Below are positions 12,120-19,550 of a DNA stretch of 64,000 nucleotides, piece by piece. The stretch comes from Pseudomonadota bacterium (GTDB taxonomy: Bacteria; Pseudomonadota; Alphaproteobacteria; Acetobacterales; Acetobacteraceae), in the NCBI GenBank assembly GCA_019351895.1, contig JABBOH010000004.1, positions 62,001 through 126,000 on the forward strand. Direction: 5' to 3'. Every line of letters begins with the position of its first letter. Within the stretch, counting starts at the first letter, position 1. A program made the translations under genes and the position numbers. A model generated the notes under the pieces. It had not been told where the DNA came from, did no database searches, and saw nothing but the letters and a program-made list of their open reading frames with translations.

Positions 12120-12887
<768 letters not shown>

Positions 12888-13032
12888 TTTTTGACTCCCT
12901 GCGTTATCCATCCTGTCTCGAAAGCTGGCAAACCCCAAAAAGCTTTCAAGGACGAAGAATAACAGTCATGGAAGTTTGATCGGGAAGTGCTCCCCGTTCC
13001 TGCTGCATGACGCAGCCGCCCGCCGCCGGTCG

Positions 13033-14370
13033 TCAGTTGAGCGGCGGCGCCCCCGCGCCCGGGCCTTGCGCGGTTGCATTCCGTTTGGCAATGGCCCCGA
13101 TGCGGCCTGCGAGTTCCGGCGTGGCATTGGCGGATCCGCGGTTGCCCCAAGATGTGCGCACATAGTTTGCGATATCCGCGATCTTCTGGTCCGAGAGCGT
13201 GGCCGCGAAGCTCGGCATCGCGATGTATGTGCCCATGCCCGGCAGGCCGTTGACCATTGCGGCGATCACGCTATCGGGCTGGGTCGCGACCACGGCGGCA
13301 TTGCCGGCCAGATTGGGAATGGCGCCCGGCACGCCCTGGCCGCTCGGCTGGTGGCATCCCGCGCAGTTGGTCTGAAAGAGCGCCTGCCCGGCCGCCGACT
13401 GCGCCGGCTTGATCGGAACCGGCACGGTGTAGTCGGGCCGCTTGGCGGCATTCAGAAGATAAGTCGCGATCGCGGTGAGGTCGCCGTCCGTCAGGTAGCG
13501 CGTGCTGTATTGCACAACCGCGGCCATTGGTCCGAAAGCGACGCCGAGATGCGGCTCCGCCCCGGTATGAAGGAACTGCTTCACCTGATCGACCGTGCGC
13601 GCGCCGAGCCCGGCGTCGGGATCGGTCGAGATATTGGGCGCGTAGTAGCCTTCCACGACGCCCCCCGACAGCGACCGGCCGAGCAGCATCGCGCCGAGCC
13701 CGTTGCGCGGCGTATGACATTCGCCGCAATGCCCGGCCCCGAGCACCAGATAGGCGCCGCGGTTCCAGACCGCGGACCGATGCGGGTCGTCGCGATAGGT
13801 GCCGGGCTGGAAGAACATCAGCCGCCACCCGATCAACGACGCGCGGATGTTGAAGGGAAAGGCGAGCCGGTTCACGTCCCGATGGGCCGTGACCGGCTTC
13901 AGCGAAAACAGGTAGGCCTTGATGTCGGAAACATCCTGCCGCGTCATCTGCGTGTAGGAGGTGAAGGGCATCGCGGGGTAGATGAGCTTGCCGTGGGGAC
14001 CGACCCCATCATGGACGACGCGATAGAACTGCTCGTCGGTCCACTGTCCGATGCCGGTTCTGGCGGCGGGCGTGATGTTGGGCGAGACGATCACGCCGAA
14101 GCCCGTATGGATCGGCAATCCGCCGGAGAAGGCAGGCTGGCCGGGTCCGGTGTGGCAGGGCATGCAGTCGGCGGCGCGAGCAAGGTAGTCGCCACGGGCC
14201 ACGGCGGCCGCCACGCCTCCCTTCGATGTCGCGGTATCAGCTGTCGCGGCGCGAAATGTCGGGGCCTGTTCGGTTTGCGCGCGCGCGGGAATCGGGCGGC
14301 CGGCAGCCAGCACCATGGACAGCGCCACGGCGGCACTCGATAGTCGTCGCCCGATAGACAATCCGCGCAT
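13033..14370 (-). CDS. tri-haem cytochrome c, alcohol/gluconate dehydrogenase cytochrome subunit type
   Basis: A 445-residue periplasmic cytochrome c with an N-terminal signal peptide (about residues 1-32, ending PARAQ) and three haem sites: CMPCH (69-73), CGECH (215-219) and CAGCH (336-340). The layout matches the cytochrome subunits of membrane alcohol, sorbitol or gluconate dehydrogenases, which pass electrons to ubiquinone. No catalytic dehydrogenase subunit is adjacent, so its electron donor is unknown and encoded elsewhere. The start ATG has AGGCGG 5 bases upstream and yields the signal directly; the longer open frame adds about 100 basic residues and is rejected. Confidence 0.9.
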   Translation of the reverse strand: MRGLSIGRRLSSAAVALSMVLAAGRPIPARAQTEQAPTFRAATADTATSKGGVAAAVARGDYLARAADCMPCHTGPGQPAFSGGLPIHTGFGVIVSPNITPAARTGIGQWTDEQFYRVVHDGVGPHGKLIYPAMPFTSYTQMTRQDVSDIKAYLFSLKPVTAHRDVNRLAFPFNIRASLIGWRLMFFQPGTYRDDPHRSAVWNRGAYLVLGAGHCGECHTPRNGLGAMLLGRSLSGGVVEGYYAPNISTDPDAGLGARTVDQVKQFLHTGAEPHLGVAFGPMAAVVQYSTRYLTDGDLTAIATYLLNAAKRPDYTVPVPIKPAQSAAGQALFQTNCAGCHQPSGQGVPGAIPNLAGNAAVVATQPDSVIAAMVNGLPGMGTYIAMPSFAATLSDQKIADIANYVRTSWGNRGSANATPELAGRIGAIAKRNATAQGPGAGAPPLN

Positions 14371-14564: not shown

Positions 14565-15335
14565 GTGCACGATAAAAGGACCGAGAGCCCCGAAGTAGCC
14601 GATATGGGAAGCTGTCCTCGCTCCCCCGCCGATCCGGAGTTCCGCGACGACGAGGACGCAGCCACGGCGGCATCCCCCATCTATGGCCCCATCGCGCGGG
14701 GTCCCTTCGTCCTCGGCCAGCTCGGCCAGTCGCTCGACGGCCGTATCGCGACGCCGACGGGACATTCGCGCACCATCAGCGGGGCCGCCGGCATCGCGCA
14801 TCTGCACCGGCTGAGAGCGATGGCCGACGCGGTTGTGGTCGGCATCGGCACGATACTCGCGGATGATCCGCAGATGACGGTGCGCGCGGTCCCGGGGCGC
14901 CATCCGGCGCGGGTCGTGATCGACCCCCGCGGGCGAATGCCGTGTGACGCGCGGGTGCTGGCGGATAACGGCGCGCCCTGCTTCGTCGTCCAGACAGCCG
15001 CGCAGCCGCGCCCGGCGGGCGTCATGGTCCTGACCTTGCCGGCGGACCCCTCGGGCGGCGTCGATCCACATGCGCTGGTGGCGGCGCTGGCGGCGCGCGG
15101 GTTCCGGCGGTTGCTGATCGAGGGCGGCGGACAGACGGTGTCGCGGTTCCTCGCCTGCGGTGCGCTGACGCGGCTTCATGTCTGCGTGACACCGGTGCTG
15201 ATCGGCTCGGGACCGACAGGGCTTTGCCTGCCGCCCATCACCCGCATGGAGGAGGCGCTGCGCCCCCGATGCCGGACGCATCTGCTGGGCGACGACGTGC
15301 TTTTCGACATCAGCTTCGATCGGCCCCAGGGCTAG
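14565..15335 (+). CDS. RibD C-terminal-type pyrimidine/pteridine reductase
   Basis: A 256-residue protein with only the reductase half of RibD (DHFR-like fold); the deaminase half is absent. Family marks are GQLGQSLDGRIA (about residues 47-58), the VVVGIGTILADDPQMTVR segment near 88-105, a Val-Ile-Asp-Pro-Arg strand, and LLIEGGGQTVSRFL near 183-196. It should use NAD(P)H to reduce a pyrimidine, pterin or similar ring. The start is GTG with AAGGAA just upstream. It converges with the glycosyltransferase; the two stop codons share a CTAG. Its association with a PTPS-like gene suggests a pterin-type substrate rather than riboflavin; this is inference. Confidence 0.85.
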   Translation: MHDKRTESPEVADMGSCPRSPADPEFRDDEDAATAASPIYGPIARGPFVLGQLGQSLDGRIATPTGHSRTISGAAGIAHLHRLRAMADAVVVGIGTILADDPQMTVRAVPGRHPARVVIDPRGRMPCDARVLADNGAPCFVVQTAAQPRPAGVMVLTLPADPSGGVDPHALVAALAARGFRRLLIEGGGQTVSRFLACGALTRLHVCVTPVLIGSGPTGLCLPPITRMEEALRPRCRTHLLGDDVLFDISFDRPQG

Positions 15336-16363
15336 CCGAGGCGGCGCAGGAGTGCGGCGACCGCGCCGGCCGTAGCCTCCCAACGCGGCAGACGGGCGGC
15401 GGCGGCCAGCGCCGCGCCCGAGGCTGCGTCCCGCGCGGCGGGATCGGCCAGCAGCCGTGCCAGGGCCTCGGCCAGCGCCCCCGGATCGTCAGGCGGCACC
15501 AGCGCGCCCGCGGCTTCCGGCACCACCGAGGGAATGGCCCCGGCCCGGGTTCCGACCACGGGCAGGCCGCGCATCAGCGCCTCCGCATAGGCCATGCCGA
15601 AGCCCTCATGGCGGCTGGCGAGGACGAAGAGATCGGCAGCCGCATAGAGCGCCCCGGCATCCGCGACCTCGCCCGCAAGGCGGATGCGGCCGGCAAGACC
15701 GCGCGCCGCGACCTGCGCGCGGAGCGCCGCCGCCGTCTCGGGCGCGCGGTCGAGACTGCCGGCGATCGTGCAGCGCCAGGGCAGATCCGCGATCCGGGCG
15801 AGGGCGGCCACCAGCACGTCATGCCCCTTGCGCGGCGTCACCGTGCCGAGTGCCAGGACATGCGGCGGAACGCCGAGGCGGGCCGCGGGTGGCGCCGGGT
15901 CGGTGCCCGGCGGCGCCACCACCACCCGATCGGGGGGCACGCCATACTCCCGCCGCAGCGTCTCCGCCGTCGCCTCGCTGGTGGCGATCACGGCGCGGGC
16001 ATGGCCGAGCGCGTCCCGCTCAGCCTCGCGGAGGCCGGCGGCAGCGCCCGTTTCCAGCGCCAGCGGGTGGTGGACGAGGGCGATCAGCCGCAGGCGGTGT
16101 CCCTCGTCAGCGGCCACTTCGGGCATCGCGCCGTAGGCGAGGCCGTCGATGATGACGATGCCGCCGTCCGGCTGCTCGGCGAGCGACTGGCGGACCAAGG
16201 CGAGTTCCGCCCGGCTCGGCGCCGGAAAGCCAGGCGGCCAGGCCAGGTGCCGCAGGGCGAAGCCTTCGCCCCGAAGCCCCGCGATCAGCCGCCGGTCGTA
16301 GGCATAGCCGCCCGTCCGGGTCTCGATCGCGCCGGGAACGGCGAAGCTGATCTCACGCGACAT
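15332..16363 (-). CDS. glycosyltransferase family 4 protein
   Basis: A 343-residue GT-B fold transferase. The C-terminal domain shows ALGTVTPRKGHDVLVAAL (near 177-194), the Ala-Asp-Leu-Phe-Val-Leu-Ala-Ser-Arg segment and the nucleotide-sugar motif EGFGMAYAEALMRGLPVVG (near 261-279), typical of GT4 enzymes. No membrane segment is seen, so it is probably cytoplasmic. The acceptor is unknown. It overlaps the end of the PTPS-like gene upstream by 11 bases and so is translationally coupled to it, which makes a small pterin-like metabolite a candidate acceptor. Confidence 0.88.
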   Translation of the reverse strand: MSREISFAVPGAIETRTGGYAYDRRLIAGLRGEGFALRHLAWPPGFPAPSRAELALVRQSLAEQPDGGIVIIDGLAYGAMPEVAADEGHRLRLIALVHHPLALETGAAAGLREAERDALGHARAVIATSEATAETLRREYGVPPDRVVVAPPGTDPAPPAARLGVPPHVLALGTVTPRKGHDVLVAALARIADLPWRCTIAGSLDRAPETAAALRAQVAARGLAGRIRLAGEVADAGALYAAADLFVLASRHEGFGMAYAEALMRGLPVVGTRAGAIPSVVPEAAGALVPPDDPGALAEALARLLADPAARDAASGAALAAAARLPRWEATAGAVAALLRRLG

Positions 16364-16754
16364 CGGCCTCGTACCAACCTCGCGCGAGATGGGATTCGCC
16401 GAGCGTCACGCGCATGCGGGTAATGCCCTCGGCATGCGGACCGAGCTTGCCGCCGCGCCGCGCCGCCTCCATCCGGTCGAAGATCGTCTTCGCGAGGAAT
16501 TCGGTGGTCGTGACCTGCCCCCCCAGCGCCGGGTCCTCGTCCAGATTGGCGTAGTTGAGCGGCGCTAGGGCGTCGTGCAGGGCCGCCAGCGCCCGGCCGA
16601 TATCGACGACGATGTTGTCGGCCGGCAGCGTCTCGCGGAAGAAGGCCACGTCGACCACGAAGGTCGCCCCGTGGAGCTTCTGCGCCGGGCCGAACACCTC
16701 GCCCGGCAGGCTATGCGCGATCATGATGTGGTCGCGGACTTCGACAGCGAACAT
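16353..16754 (-). CDS. 6-pyruvoyl-tetrahydropterin synthase-like protein lacking catalytic residues
   Basis: A 133-residue T-fold protein of PTPS / 6-carboxytetrahydropterin synthase (QueD) type. One or two zinc ligands are recognisable (H14, and H28 in LHGA). The canonical Cys-x-x-x-His-Gly-His block reads AQKLHGATF, so the catalytic Cys is Ala24 and the third zinc His is Ala30. The usual LDH motif carrying the catalytic His reads LNY (66-68). The late Glu that grips the pterin ring (E120) is kept. It may thus bind a pterin-like ring without the known chemistry. It lies 8 bases after the dehydrogenase gene and overlaps the glycosyltransferase, so the three form one operon. The ATG at 16754 starts directly on the conserved first strand. 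Confidence 0.85.
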   Translation of the reverse strand: MFAVEVRDHIMIAHSLPGEVFGPAQKLHGATFVVDVAFFRETLPADNIVVDIGRALAALHDALAPLNYANLDEDPALGGQVTTTEFLAKTIFDRMEAARRGGKLGPHAEGITRMRVTLGESHLARGWYEADVA

Positions 16755-16761
16755 GGGGGCT

Positions 16762-17751
16762 TCACTCCGTCTCGTACAGCACACGGTGGAACAGGGCGCC
16801 GGATTTTCCCAGGATCTCCGGCAACGCCTGCGGCAGCGCGTCGAAGGGCGTCGCCGCCTCGACGAGCTTGTCGAGACGCGGATCGGCGGCGAGCGACAGC
16901 GCGAGCGCGAGACGCCGCGCATGGCTCCACCGGCTGCGGCGAGCGGGTGCCACGGCGCCCACCTGGGAGGCGCGCAGGCTCAGCCGCTGGCTGTGGAAGG
17001 CGCCTCCGAGCGGGAGCGTCACCGGCCGGTCGCCATACCAGCTGAGTTCGATGATCTCGGCCTCGAATCCGGCCAGAGAGAGCGCGAGGGCCAGCCCCTC
17101 GCCGCTACCCGACGCATGGAACACGAGATCGCAATCCCGCGAAGCCGTATCCCCGTGCGCGAAGCAGACACCCAGCGCCACGGCCACATCCTCGCGCGAT
17201 GGGTCGAGGTCGATCAGCGTCACCTCGGTTCCGGGTATCCGGGCGCAGAGCCAGCCCGTCAGGCAGCCGATCGTCCCGCCGCCCACGACGGCGATGCGGT
17301 CGCCGATGCGCGGGCTCGCATCCCAGGTCGCGTTGAGCGCCGTCTCGATCTGCGCGGCGAGCACCGCGCGCGGTGTCGGCACGTCGGCCGGCACCGGGAT
17401 CGCGGCGGCCTCCGGGACGATGAACCGGCTCTGATGCGGATGCAGGCAAAAGACGCGCTCGCCGAGCCGCTCGTCCGGCCCCTCCTCGACGATGCCGACG
17501 GCGGCGTAGCCGTATTTCACCGGGAATTGGAACTCCCCTGCCTGGAAGGGCGCGCGCATCCGGCCCCATTCGCCGGGCGGCACCCGGCCCGCATAGACCA
17601 GGGCTTCGGTGCCCCGGCTGATGCCGCTCTGCAGCGTGCGGACGACGACCTCGCCAGCCCCGCGTGGCGGCAGGGTCTCGTCCCGGACCTCGGCCCGACC
17701 GGCTTCGGTCATCCAAAGAGCCCGCGCGGGCGTATTGCCGGGAGCCTGCAA
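16762..17751 (-). CDS. BchC-like MDR-family dehydrogenase
   Basis: A 329-residue medium-chain dehydrogenase/reductase. The catalytic zinc loop of alcohol dehydrogenases is altered: the usual Cys-Gly-x-Cys-Gly reads QSGISRGTE. No four-Cys structural zinc lobe is present. The segments SRGTE, RMRAPFQAGEF, PVKYGYAAVG and FCLHPHQ match the BchC (chlorophyllide a dehydrogenase) subtype. The Rossmann motif IAVVGGGTIG is near residues 154-163. A TTG start at 17751 with a perfect GGAGG 8 bases upstream fits the family N-terminus. No other photosynthesis gene is in view. It heads the dehydrogenase-PTPS-glycosyltransferase operon and may oxidise a side chain of the cluster's product. Confidence 0.85.
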   Translation of the reverse strand: MQAPGNTPARALWMTEAGRAEVRDETLPPRGAGEVVVRTLQSGISRGTEALVYAGRVPPGEWGRMRAPFQAGEFQFPVKYGYAAVGIVEEGPDERLGERVFCLHPHQSRFIVPEAAAIPVPADVPTPRAVLAAQIETALNATWDASPRIGDRIAVVGGGTIGCLTGWLCARIPGTEVTLIDLDPSREDVAVALGVCFAHGDTASRDCDLVFHASGSGEGLALALSLAGFEAEIIELSWYGDRPVTLPLGGAFHSQRLSLRASQVGAVAPARRSRWSHARRLALALSLAADPRLDKLVEAATPFDALPQALPEILGKSGALFHRVLYETE

Positions 17752-17789
17752 TCGGTTAGCCTCCGGCCCAGCCAAGCAAGGAACAACGT

Positions 17790-19550
17790 GTGGACGATAT
17801 CGCGCTCGTGGTGCCGCCGGTGCTCGCAGCGCCCGGGGAACGGCTGGGGGCGCGGCGCGCGCTCGTGCTCGTGCTCAATCTCGGCAGCTGGATAGGGCTC
17901 GGCCTCGTCATGGCGCACGTGATCGGCGGCCAGGGCTGGACGCCCGCCAGCATCGCGATCATGGCGCTGTTCCTCATCGGCCTGCCCTGGACGCTGCTCG
18001 CCTTCTGGAACGCCGTCATCGGCTTCGTCATCCTCCGCGGCACCCGCGATCCTGCTTCCTATACGAATGTCGCCCTCCGCGCGACGGTGCCGGACGCGCC
18101 GATCAGCCGTCGCACCGCCATCTGCATCGCCATCCGGCATGAGGATGTGGAGCGCGTGGCGACGCGCCTCGCGGTCATGCAGGGGAGCCTCGCCGCGACC
18201 GGCGCGGGCGCGATGTTCGCCTTCCATGTGCTGAGCGACAGCAGCCGCCCGGATAGCGTGGCGGCCGAGCTTGCGGCGTTCGGCAACGCGCCCGGCGTCA
18301 CCTATCGCCGCCGCCCCGCCAACACCGGCTTCAAGGCGGGCAATCTTCGCGACTTCGCGCTCGCCGCCGGATCGGATGCCCACTTCATGCTCGTGCTCGA
18401 CGCCGACAGCCTGATGTCGGGGGCGGCGATCCTGCGGCTGGTGCGGGTGATGGAGGCAAACCCCGGCCTCGGCATCCTGCAGACGCTGGTGACGGGGTTG
18501 CCAGCGACCAGCGCCTTCGCGCGCATCTTCCAGTTCGGCATGCGCCACGGCATGCGCACGCACACAACGGGCATCGCCTGGTGGCAGGGATCGAGCGGCC
18601 CCTATTGGGGGCACAACGCGCTCATCCGCCTGAGTTCCTTCGTCGCCCATTGCGAGCTGCCGGTCCTGCCGGGTCGGTCGCCCCTATCGGGCCATATCCT
18701 GAGCCACGATCAGGTCGAGGCGGCGCTGATGCGCGCGGCGGGGATGGAGGTGCGGGTAATCGCCGACGAATTCGGCAGCTGGGAGGAAAACCCGCCGCGC
18801 CTGCCGGACTTCATCCGCCGCGACCTCCGCTGGGCCCAAGGCAATCTGCAGTATCTTGGGCTGGTCACCCGCCCCGGGCTGCGGGCCATGGGCCGGTTCC
18901 AGCTTTGCAACGCCATCGCGATGTATCTCGGCGCGCCCACCTCGCTGCTCATGCTGGTGATCGGTCTGGTCAACGGCCTGACGCGCGGCCATGCGGGCGC
19001 GGTGCCGCAGACGCTCGCCTTCAGCCTCTATTTCGGCTTCCTGCTGATCGGTTTTGCGCCGCGGCTGCTCGGCGTGCTCGACATCGCGCTGCGCCCGGCC
19101 GAGCGCCGTCGTTGGGGGGGCCTGCCCCGCCTGCTGGCGGGTGCCGCGACCGACGGCCTGTTCACGCTGATGATCGGGCCGGTGATGATGGTGTCGCAGG
19201 CGCGCTTCATCGCCGGGCTCGCCCTCGGTCGGCGGATCATGTGGGAGGCGCAGCGGCGCGAGGCGGGCGATGTCCCCTGGGCTGAGGCCATCCGCGGACT
19301 CTGGCCGCAGCTGTTGTTCGGGTTGCTGTTCGCGGTGGCCCTCTGGCGTGTCGCGCCGGGGGCGATCCCCTGGGCCTTGCCGACGCTCGCCGGGTCGTTG
19401 CTGGCGATCCCCTTCGCCTGCGTCACCGCCGAGCCGCGCCTCGGGCGCTGGATGGTGCGGCGGGGCCTCTGCGCCATCCCCGATGAGTTCGATCCGGCGC
19501 CCGAGGTCCTGGCGCTGGATGAGAGCCGCGCTGAGCGCTCCAGGCGGTAG
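17790..19550 (+). CDS. opgH: OpgH/MdoH-type glucan glucosyltransferase
   Basis: A 586-residue inner-membrane GT2 enzyme. Two N-terminal helices (about 27-45 and 55-82) precede the catalytic domain with the UDP-binding DAD (204-206), the HDQVE acceptor site (306-310) and the RRDLRW motif (343-348); four to six helices follow. This is the OpgH family that makes osmoregulated periplasmic glucans from UDP-glucose. It is shorter than the 840-residue enteric enzyme but normal for alphaproteobacteria. No opgG lies beside it. The start is GTG with AAGGA 7 bases upstream. Only 38 bases separate its start from the divergent dehydrogenase start. Confidence 0.88.
   Translation: MDDIALVVPPVLAAPGERLGARRALVLVLNLGSWIGLGLVMAHVIGGQGWTPASIAIMALFLIGLPWTLLAFWNAVIGFVILRGTRDPASYTNVALRATVPDAPISRRTAICIAIRHEDVERVATRLAVMQGSLAATGAGAMFAFHVLSDSSRPDSVAAELAAFGNAPGVTYRRRPANTGFKAGNLRDFALAAGSDAHFMLVLDADSLMSGAAILRLVRVMEANPGLGILQTLVTGLPATSAFARIFQFGMRHGMRTHTTGIAWWQGSSGPYWGHNALIRLSSFVAHCELPVLPGRSPLSGHILSHDQVEAALMRAAGMEVRVIADEFGSWEENPPRLPDFIRRDLRWAQGNLQYLGLVTRPGLRAMGRFQLCNAIAMYLGAPTSLLMLVIGLVNGLTRGHAGAVPQTLAFSLYFGFLLIGFAPRLLGVLDIALRPAERRRWGGLPRLLAGAATDGLFTLMIGPVMMVSQARFIAGLALGRRIMWEAQRREAGDVPWAEAIRGLWPQLLFGLLFAVALWRVAPGAIPWALPTLAGSLLAIPFACVTAEPRLGRWMVRRGLCAIPDEFDPAPEVLALDESRAERSRR

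Follow-up and report, generated by a model that had tools for sequence, protein, structure and literature searches.

The subject of this analysis is a compact group of four genes, built around a PTPS-like T-fold protein, in a 64,000-nucleotide stretch of an Acetobacteraceae genome (assembly GCA_019351895.1, contig JABBOH010000004.1, positions 62,001 to 126,000 of the forward strand); this whole stretch is called the window, and coordinates given alone are counted from its first nucleotide. The plus strand encodes a RibD_C-type reductase without a deaminase domain (14565..15335; Pfam RibD_C, 132 bits), a predicted pyrimidine or pterin reductase, which converges on three minus-strand genes. These encode a GT4 glycosyltransferase (15332..16363; Pfam Glyco_trans_1_4, 111 bits), the PTPS-like protein itself (16353..16754; Pfam PTPS, 68.5 bits), which has 133 residues, carries the motif FGPAQKLHGATF and is assigned below to subfamily PTPS-IV, and an NAD-type MDR dehydrogenase (16762..17775), recognized from an alignment, residue counts over 80 rows, and a structural model with MDR fold matches. 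The stops of the RibD and GT4 genes overlap in the sequence CTAG (15332-15335) and the GT4 and PTPS-like genes overlap by 11 bases (16353-16363), so the tight packing of the four genes is as described in the original prediction, which had been made from the DNA alone; the space between the dehydrogenase and PTPS-like genes, given there as 8 bases, is 7 (16755-16761). The PTPS-like gene was read from the ATG at 16754, and its open frame reaches 16922. The dehydrogenase start is ambiguous between TTG codons at 17775 and 17751, both upstream of a tryptophan (W21) that is invariant in the family and that a start at the first internal ATG (17712) would exclude. The cluster has a GC content of 0.69-0.76; that of the flanking DNA is 0.62-0.68 on the left and 0.68-0.73 on the right.

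The PTPS-like protein is a PTPS-IV member

The available part of a published analysis gives FGPAQ as the signature of subfamily PTPS-IV of COG0720, with PF00925 and PF01872 as neighbors, and lists 561 sequences in its cluster-node 62; PF00925 is called GTP cyclohydrolase I/FolE2 there, and its Pfam name is GTP_cyclohydro2 (PMC5445326). The window protein contains this signature in the sequence FGPAQxLHGAT, and over 82 aligned rows the Phe, Gly, and Ala of FGPAQ are invariant, the Pro is kept in 81, and the Gln in 79. A profile match to SCO6650 (PDB 3D7J) extended over nearly the full length with 207.6 bits, and the next solved protein scored 34 bits. On the basis of its sequence, we assign the window protein to the already named subfamily PTPS-IV.

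The motifs of the other subfamilies are absent. At the PTPS-I motif CxxxHGH the Cys position holds Ala and HGH is replaced by HGA in all 82 rows, at the PTPS-II motif CxxxxxHGH the Cys position is Gly in 82 of 82, and the Glu of the PTPS-III motif ExxHGH is replaced by Gln (79 rows), Arg (2), or Ala (1). HGAT is invariant in the same rows, as is Glu120 near the C terminus, and 75 of the 82 have Tyr or Phe at the position where, by our own placement, the catalytic His would stand. From the alignment, we take H14 and H28 to be two of the three zinc-binding His positions of QueD and PTPS. The structure paper on SCO6650 reportedly described a protein that has lost the zinc and the catalytic triad and shows no PTPS activity; the changes at the two Cys positions, at HGH, and at the placed catalytic His agree with that report. 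QueD or PTPS chemistry is unlikely because the three motifs are absent, and the label 6-carboxytetrahydropterin synthase (the queuosine enzyme), which most of the annotated relatives that we read carry, appears doubtful because the Cys, HGH, and catalytic-His positions have all changed.

The reductase and the dehydrogenase

Only the RibD_C domain of the reductase was matched in Pfam, with no match for a deaminase domain, so the protein is not a bifunctional RibD. Its best solved match is 6p8c, which is named as a reductase of 2,5-diamino-pyrimidinone ribosyl phosphate (DARPP), and it scored 107 bits with the archaeal-type DARPP reductase model TIGR01508, for which the cut-off is 186. Elsewhere the genome encodes a bifunctional RibD with both domains and an adjoining RibA, and also a RibBA; the RibD of the cluster is therefore an additional paralogue. 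Neither copy is a cluster-type RibA, the one adjoining the bifunctional RibD and the other being RibBA, and that candidate was ruled out. FolE was also found in the genome, and therefore the cell need not use the cluster for folate.

The dehydrogenase had no Pfam match at E 0.001. Its best NCBIfam match was BchC (TIGR01202), so the "BchC-like" of the original prediction names the right nearest model and a distant one: the window protein resembles BchC in being an MDR-type dehydrogenase, but its score is 57 bits where the cut-off is 291, which rules out BchC identity. The predicted structure (pLDDT 93) has the MDR fold, and its PDB fold matches are generic MDR proteins, including L-idonate, xylitol, and sorbitol dehydrogenases. 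The NAD-binding glycines are kept, and the acidic residue after the second strand is Asp in 79 and Glu in one of 80 rows. Relatives are labeled zinc-binding alcohol dehydrogenase; in the window protein the canonical zinc-ligand positions lack Cys and His, with SGxSRGTE and KYGY in their place, a result that covers these positions and not other conserved residues such as H114 and H261.

Conservation of the gene set

The window PTPS-like protein was used to search 289 evenly drawn alphaproteobacterial genomes, and 39 matches were obtained, of which 36 were strong (E ≤ 4.1e-29, the window's own genome included) and three weak; these three, and three weak matches in a family sample, were left out. 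PTPS-IV was present in 36 of the 289 class genomes and in 67 of 150 genomes of the window's family. Three sets of loci were compared: an even sample, from the 35 strong class genomes other than the window's (30 genera, hence not fully independent); a family set of 20, picked non-randomly from the listed matches among 66 other strong family members; and a phylum set of 20, picked non-randomly from 27 strong genomes in a sample of 398, where up to ten candidates were scored per genome and the strong genomes number at least 27 and may be undercounted (four of the seven omitted were already in other sets). Partner profiles were built from 80 named relatives, the best 80 of at least 586 and biased toward near relatives, and were applied to the three sets.

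The dehydrogenase was found in 34/35 even-sample, 20/20 family, and 20/20 phylum loci, and in the same order GT4 was found in 33/35, 20/20, and 20/20 and RibD in 27/35, 20/20, and 17/20. The even-sample figures are the neighborhood test across Alphaproteobacteria that the original prediction had proposed, and they bear it out. Further partners were a class I S-adenosylmethionine (SAM) methyltransferase (30/35, 14/20, and 18/20), GTP cyclohydrolase II (12/35, one of them weak at 72 bits, 0/20, and 9/20), a CDP-alcohol phosphatidyltransferase (12/35, 0/20, and 10/20), an MdoH-like protein (8/35, 3/20, and 9/20), an FkbM methyltransferase (6/35, 0/20, and 6/20), and, by a single-sequence model, a creatininase (6/35, 0/20, and 5/20), whose fold we take to be that of the deformylase ArfB. 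When the 80 named loci were searched by tblastn, the dehydrogenase was present in 76, GT4 in 77, RibD in 45, and MdoH in 53.

Order was conserved as well. The dehydrogenase gene lies directly upstream of the PTPS gene on the same strand in 33 of the 35 even-sample loci, and GT4 lies directly downstream in 33, comprising 29 with a spacing between -60 and 300 bases and four with apparent overlaps of 64-101 bases that were accepted by eye. Locus L149, without the dehydrogenase, and L154, without GT4, are both cut by contig ends, and GT4 is displaced in L247 and L249. The pairwise distances of five core proteins correlate with one another (r 0.62-0.83, and 0 of 499 permutations reached each of the ten values), which is consistent with co-inheritance. 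We conclude that the four genes are a real, conserved bacterial set and not a chance arrangement.

Of the two published PTPS-IV neighbors, PF01872 is represented in the window cluster and cyclohydrolase II (PF00925) was not found in the window. The 80 named loci contain 34 neighboring cyclohydrolases, and all 31 that were compared keep a Tyr that we take to be Tyr105 of Escherichia coli RibA. The Streptomyces cyclohydrolase SCO6655 reportedly makes a formylated pyrimidine. One of three Streptomyces plasmid loci read (L112) has most of the set together with the creatininase, and RibD was not found there within 10 kb. No SAM methyltransferase orthologue was found in the window's genome by single-protein search or by profile (best score 21 bits), and on these results a hidden orthologue elsewhere in the genome was ruled out.

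The MdoH-like neighbor and the surroundings

A gene for an MdoH/OpgH-like GT2 glycosyltransferase (17790..19550, plus strand; NCBIfam MdoH models) begins divergently beside the dehydrogenase gene. Homologues were found in 74 of 161 fetched loci with a median of 457 and a lowest score of 230 bits, and the protein is likely to be part of this cluster type. The cluster of four in the original prediction was therefore co-conserved as drawn and drawn too small, for it omitted this neighbor and the partners found in relatives. The genome carries OpgG on another contig, adjoined by an OpgH that is 37% identical to the window protein (300 bits). By this comparison the MdoH-like protein is distinct from the OpgG-linked OpgH, and the separate OpgH rules it out as the genome's osmoregulated periplasmic glucan synthase. 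Beyond MdoH and FkbM, L040:6094-7185 and its relatives form a family, present in 18 of the 80 named loci, that is without a Pfam match at E 1 but with a stretch that by eye resembles a signal peptide.

The window, two genomes of the same genus, and one further family member share MdoH, a convergent RibD, and no methyltransferase that could be found, and in the remaining 17 loci of the family set the genes for RibD, dehydrogenase, PTPS, and GT4 all point the same way. The window PTPS is 71% identical to that of a genome from another family (G246) versus at most 60% to the family members sampled from other genera, and it is possible, judging from these identities, that the cluster was replaced or transferred. 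On the far side of RibD lie a minus-strand gene for a cytochrome c protein (13036-14340) with two Cytochrom_C domain matches in Pfam, of which no homologue was found in the 80 named loci (tblastn, 1e-6), and a Ser/Asn-rich low-complexity open reading frame (12120-12938, minus strand) whose start resembles a signal peptide by eye.

Discussion

Starting from GTP, the gene set probably makes a small pterin-like molecule that bears a sugar. The reading that we favor, with a probability of roughly 0.6, is a biosynthetic cluster centered on PTPS-IV that turns a GTP-derived aminopyrimidine into a glycosylated pterin-like metabolite. From the observed gene content, co-conservation, and residue losses we infer its reactions and the class of its product as follows. 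GTP would be opened by GTP cyclohydrolase II to give DARPP; because the window's cluster has no such gene, the enzyme here is probably a housekeeping copy. The RibD_C enzyme would reduce either DARPP or an intermediate further along the pathway, the MDR dehydrogenase would oxidize or reduce a side-chain carbon, the PTPS-IV protein may bind the 2-amino-4-oxo ring through the invariant Glu120 and shape or close the ring, and GT4 would attach a sugar to a product that relatives would usually methylate. The relatives often carry likely membrane enzymes, either the MdoH-like GT2 or the CDP-alcohol phosphatidyltransferase together with an LPG_synthase_TM-type protein, and these suggest that in many species the end product is exported or linked to the membrane.

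A diaminopyrimidine precursor (a 2-amino ribityl-pyrimidine) seems more likely than dihydroneopterin triphosphate, since the PTPS-I to PTPS-III motifs are lost, the linked cyclohydrolase is of type II (the riboflavin branch) with its Tyr kept, and the stand-alone RibD_C protein best matches a DARPP reductase. The glycosylated pterin of the original prediction is plausible as a product class: enzymes of pterin or pyrimidine type are indeed co-conserved with a glycosyltransferase, and from that company the class is deduced. Its view that nothing of the kind had been described does not hold, for PTPS-IV with PF00925 and PF01872 appears already in the available part of PMC5445326 and a member has been solved (3D7J).

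Several observations weigh against the favored reading. Locus L152 is a true exception, with the dehydrogenase on the opposite strand and GT4 missing, and the distance correlation owes something to shared host ancestry. The RibD protein shows no clear preference in its NCBIfam scores for the archaeal DARPP reductase versus the bacterial model, both being below their cut-offs. Because RibD was not found in eight of the 35 even-sample loci and cyclohydrolase II was found neither in the window nor in any of the 20 family loci, a precursor from the riboflavin branch is unproven. On two Streptomyces plasmids PTPS-IV stands without the other cluster genes by profile search (L113) or apparently alone in an incomplete gene table (L260). 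Genes for MEKHLA, cupin, and MBL-fold proteins adjoin PTPS-IV at both of these loci.

Among the alternatives, a lipid-anchored nucleoside- or pterin-glycoside is possible, if unlikely. The CDP-alcohol phosphatidyltransferase would join the glycoside to a phospholipid, the product would be flipped by the LPG_synthase_TM protein, and the window's genus would use the MdoH-like protein instead. The frequency of the phosphatidyltransferase in the even and phylum sets, its occurrence near PTPS-IV also in Streptomyces and Rhizobiaceae, the LPG_synthase_TM-type gene in loci that have it, and its fusions to the FkbM methyltransferase beside alphaproteobacterial PTPS-IV clusters (L155:6162-7622 and L156:4412-7957) speak for this product, but neither gene was found in the window or the 20 family loci, and by profile a flippase-type gene was found in none of the 35 even-sample loci.

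The cluster might also make the pterin ring by a redox route that does not need FolE, which we regard as improbable. GTP cyclohydrolase II would supply DARPP, RibD_C would reduce its ribose C1' to the ribityl level, and the polyol-type MDR dehydrogenase would oxidize the C2' hydroxyl to a ketone, giving the same 1-amino-ketose as an Amadori rearrangement; the 5-amino group could then close on C2' to form a 7,8-dihydropterin. PTPS-IV would either hold the ring while it closes or act on the side chain ahead of glycosylation by GT4. A bypass of FolE by RibA and TrpF has reportedly been described in Chlamydia, a precedent in principle. If true, this would be a new synthesis of the pterin ring.

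That the core is instead MdoH plus GT4 making a surface polysaccharide or osmoregulated glucan, to which the pterin-type enzymes add a decoration, we consider quite improbable. The tblastn and phylum counts of MdoH and the sulfatase-annotated, FkbM, and flippase-type genes near the cluster in relatives would fit it, but MdoH is infrequent in the even and family sets while dehydrogenase-PTPS-GT4 persists, and the genome has its OpgG and adjoining OpgH elsewhere.

Synthesis of coenzyme F420 or a close deazaflavin is very improbable and was rejected. F420 synthesis also starts from a riboflavin-branch intermediate, and in G246 CofC-, CofD-, and CofE-like genes (L122:8085-11104; CofD by search, CofC and CofE by reading) are located some 6 kb away from the PTPS-IV cluster. 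The window's genome (97.9% complete) had no CofD match, and among the 289 class genomes PTPS-IV occurs in 36, CofD in 45, and both in eight, slightly above the expected 5.6 and without association (Fisher p 0.23), with CofD on another contig in the remaining seven genomes that have both. PTPS-IV has been put down as an F420 synthesis protein in archaea on unpublished data, according to the available part of PMC5041015. It is scarcely credible that the gene is QueD or a classical PTPS, serving to make queuosine or biopterin, and that its neighbors are incidental, as its relatives' labels and the finding of no second PF01242 protein in the genome might suggest, given the missing motifs, a QueD NCBIfam score of 33 versus a cut-off of 89, the conserved neighbors, and no queC, queE, or queF listed in the annotated relatives read, whose gene tables are incomplete.

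The conserved partner set outlines a concrete candidate pathway for a common metabolite. In the open-licence literature, searches by gene content and by author and title words gave no relevant paper, SCO numbers led to the locus in table rows only, and no named product was found. The queuosine-enzyme label is common on PTPS-IV proteins, which are widespread in genomes of the class and the family.

Comparison with known systems

The window protein shares with QueD, PTPS-I, and PTPS-II the T-fold family and a conserved Glu near the C terminus, but it lacks their catalytic Cys motif and has HGA in place of HGH. The cluster reductase resembles the DARPP reductases 6p8c and 2azn, both of them stand-alone RibD_C proteins and presumably archaeal, with 111 and 82 bits versus 55-70 for most RibD chains, and it falls below every NCBIfam equivalog cut-off. 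One RibD_C position, which is Gln in 34, His in 16, Arg in 16, and Leu in one of 69 rows with two gaps, is Lys in the RibD-type chain 8dq9 and Asn in 6p8c and 2azn. Published accounts of PTPS-IV differ in the neighbors that they give, the dehydrogenase, GT4, methyltransferase, MdoH, and CDP-alcohol phosphatidyltransferase not being named in the available parts of PMC5041015 and PMC5445326. The closest solved counterpart, SCO6650 of Streptomyces coelicolor (PDB 3D7J), has the same motif as the window protein but is actinobacterial.

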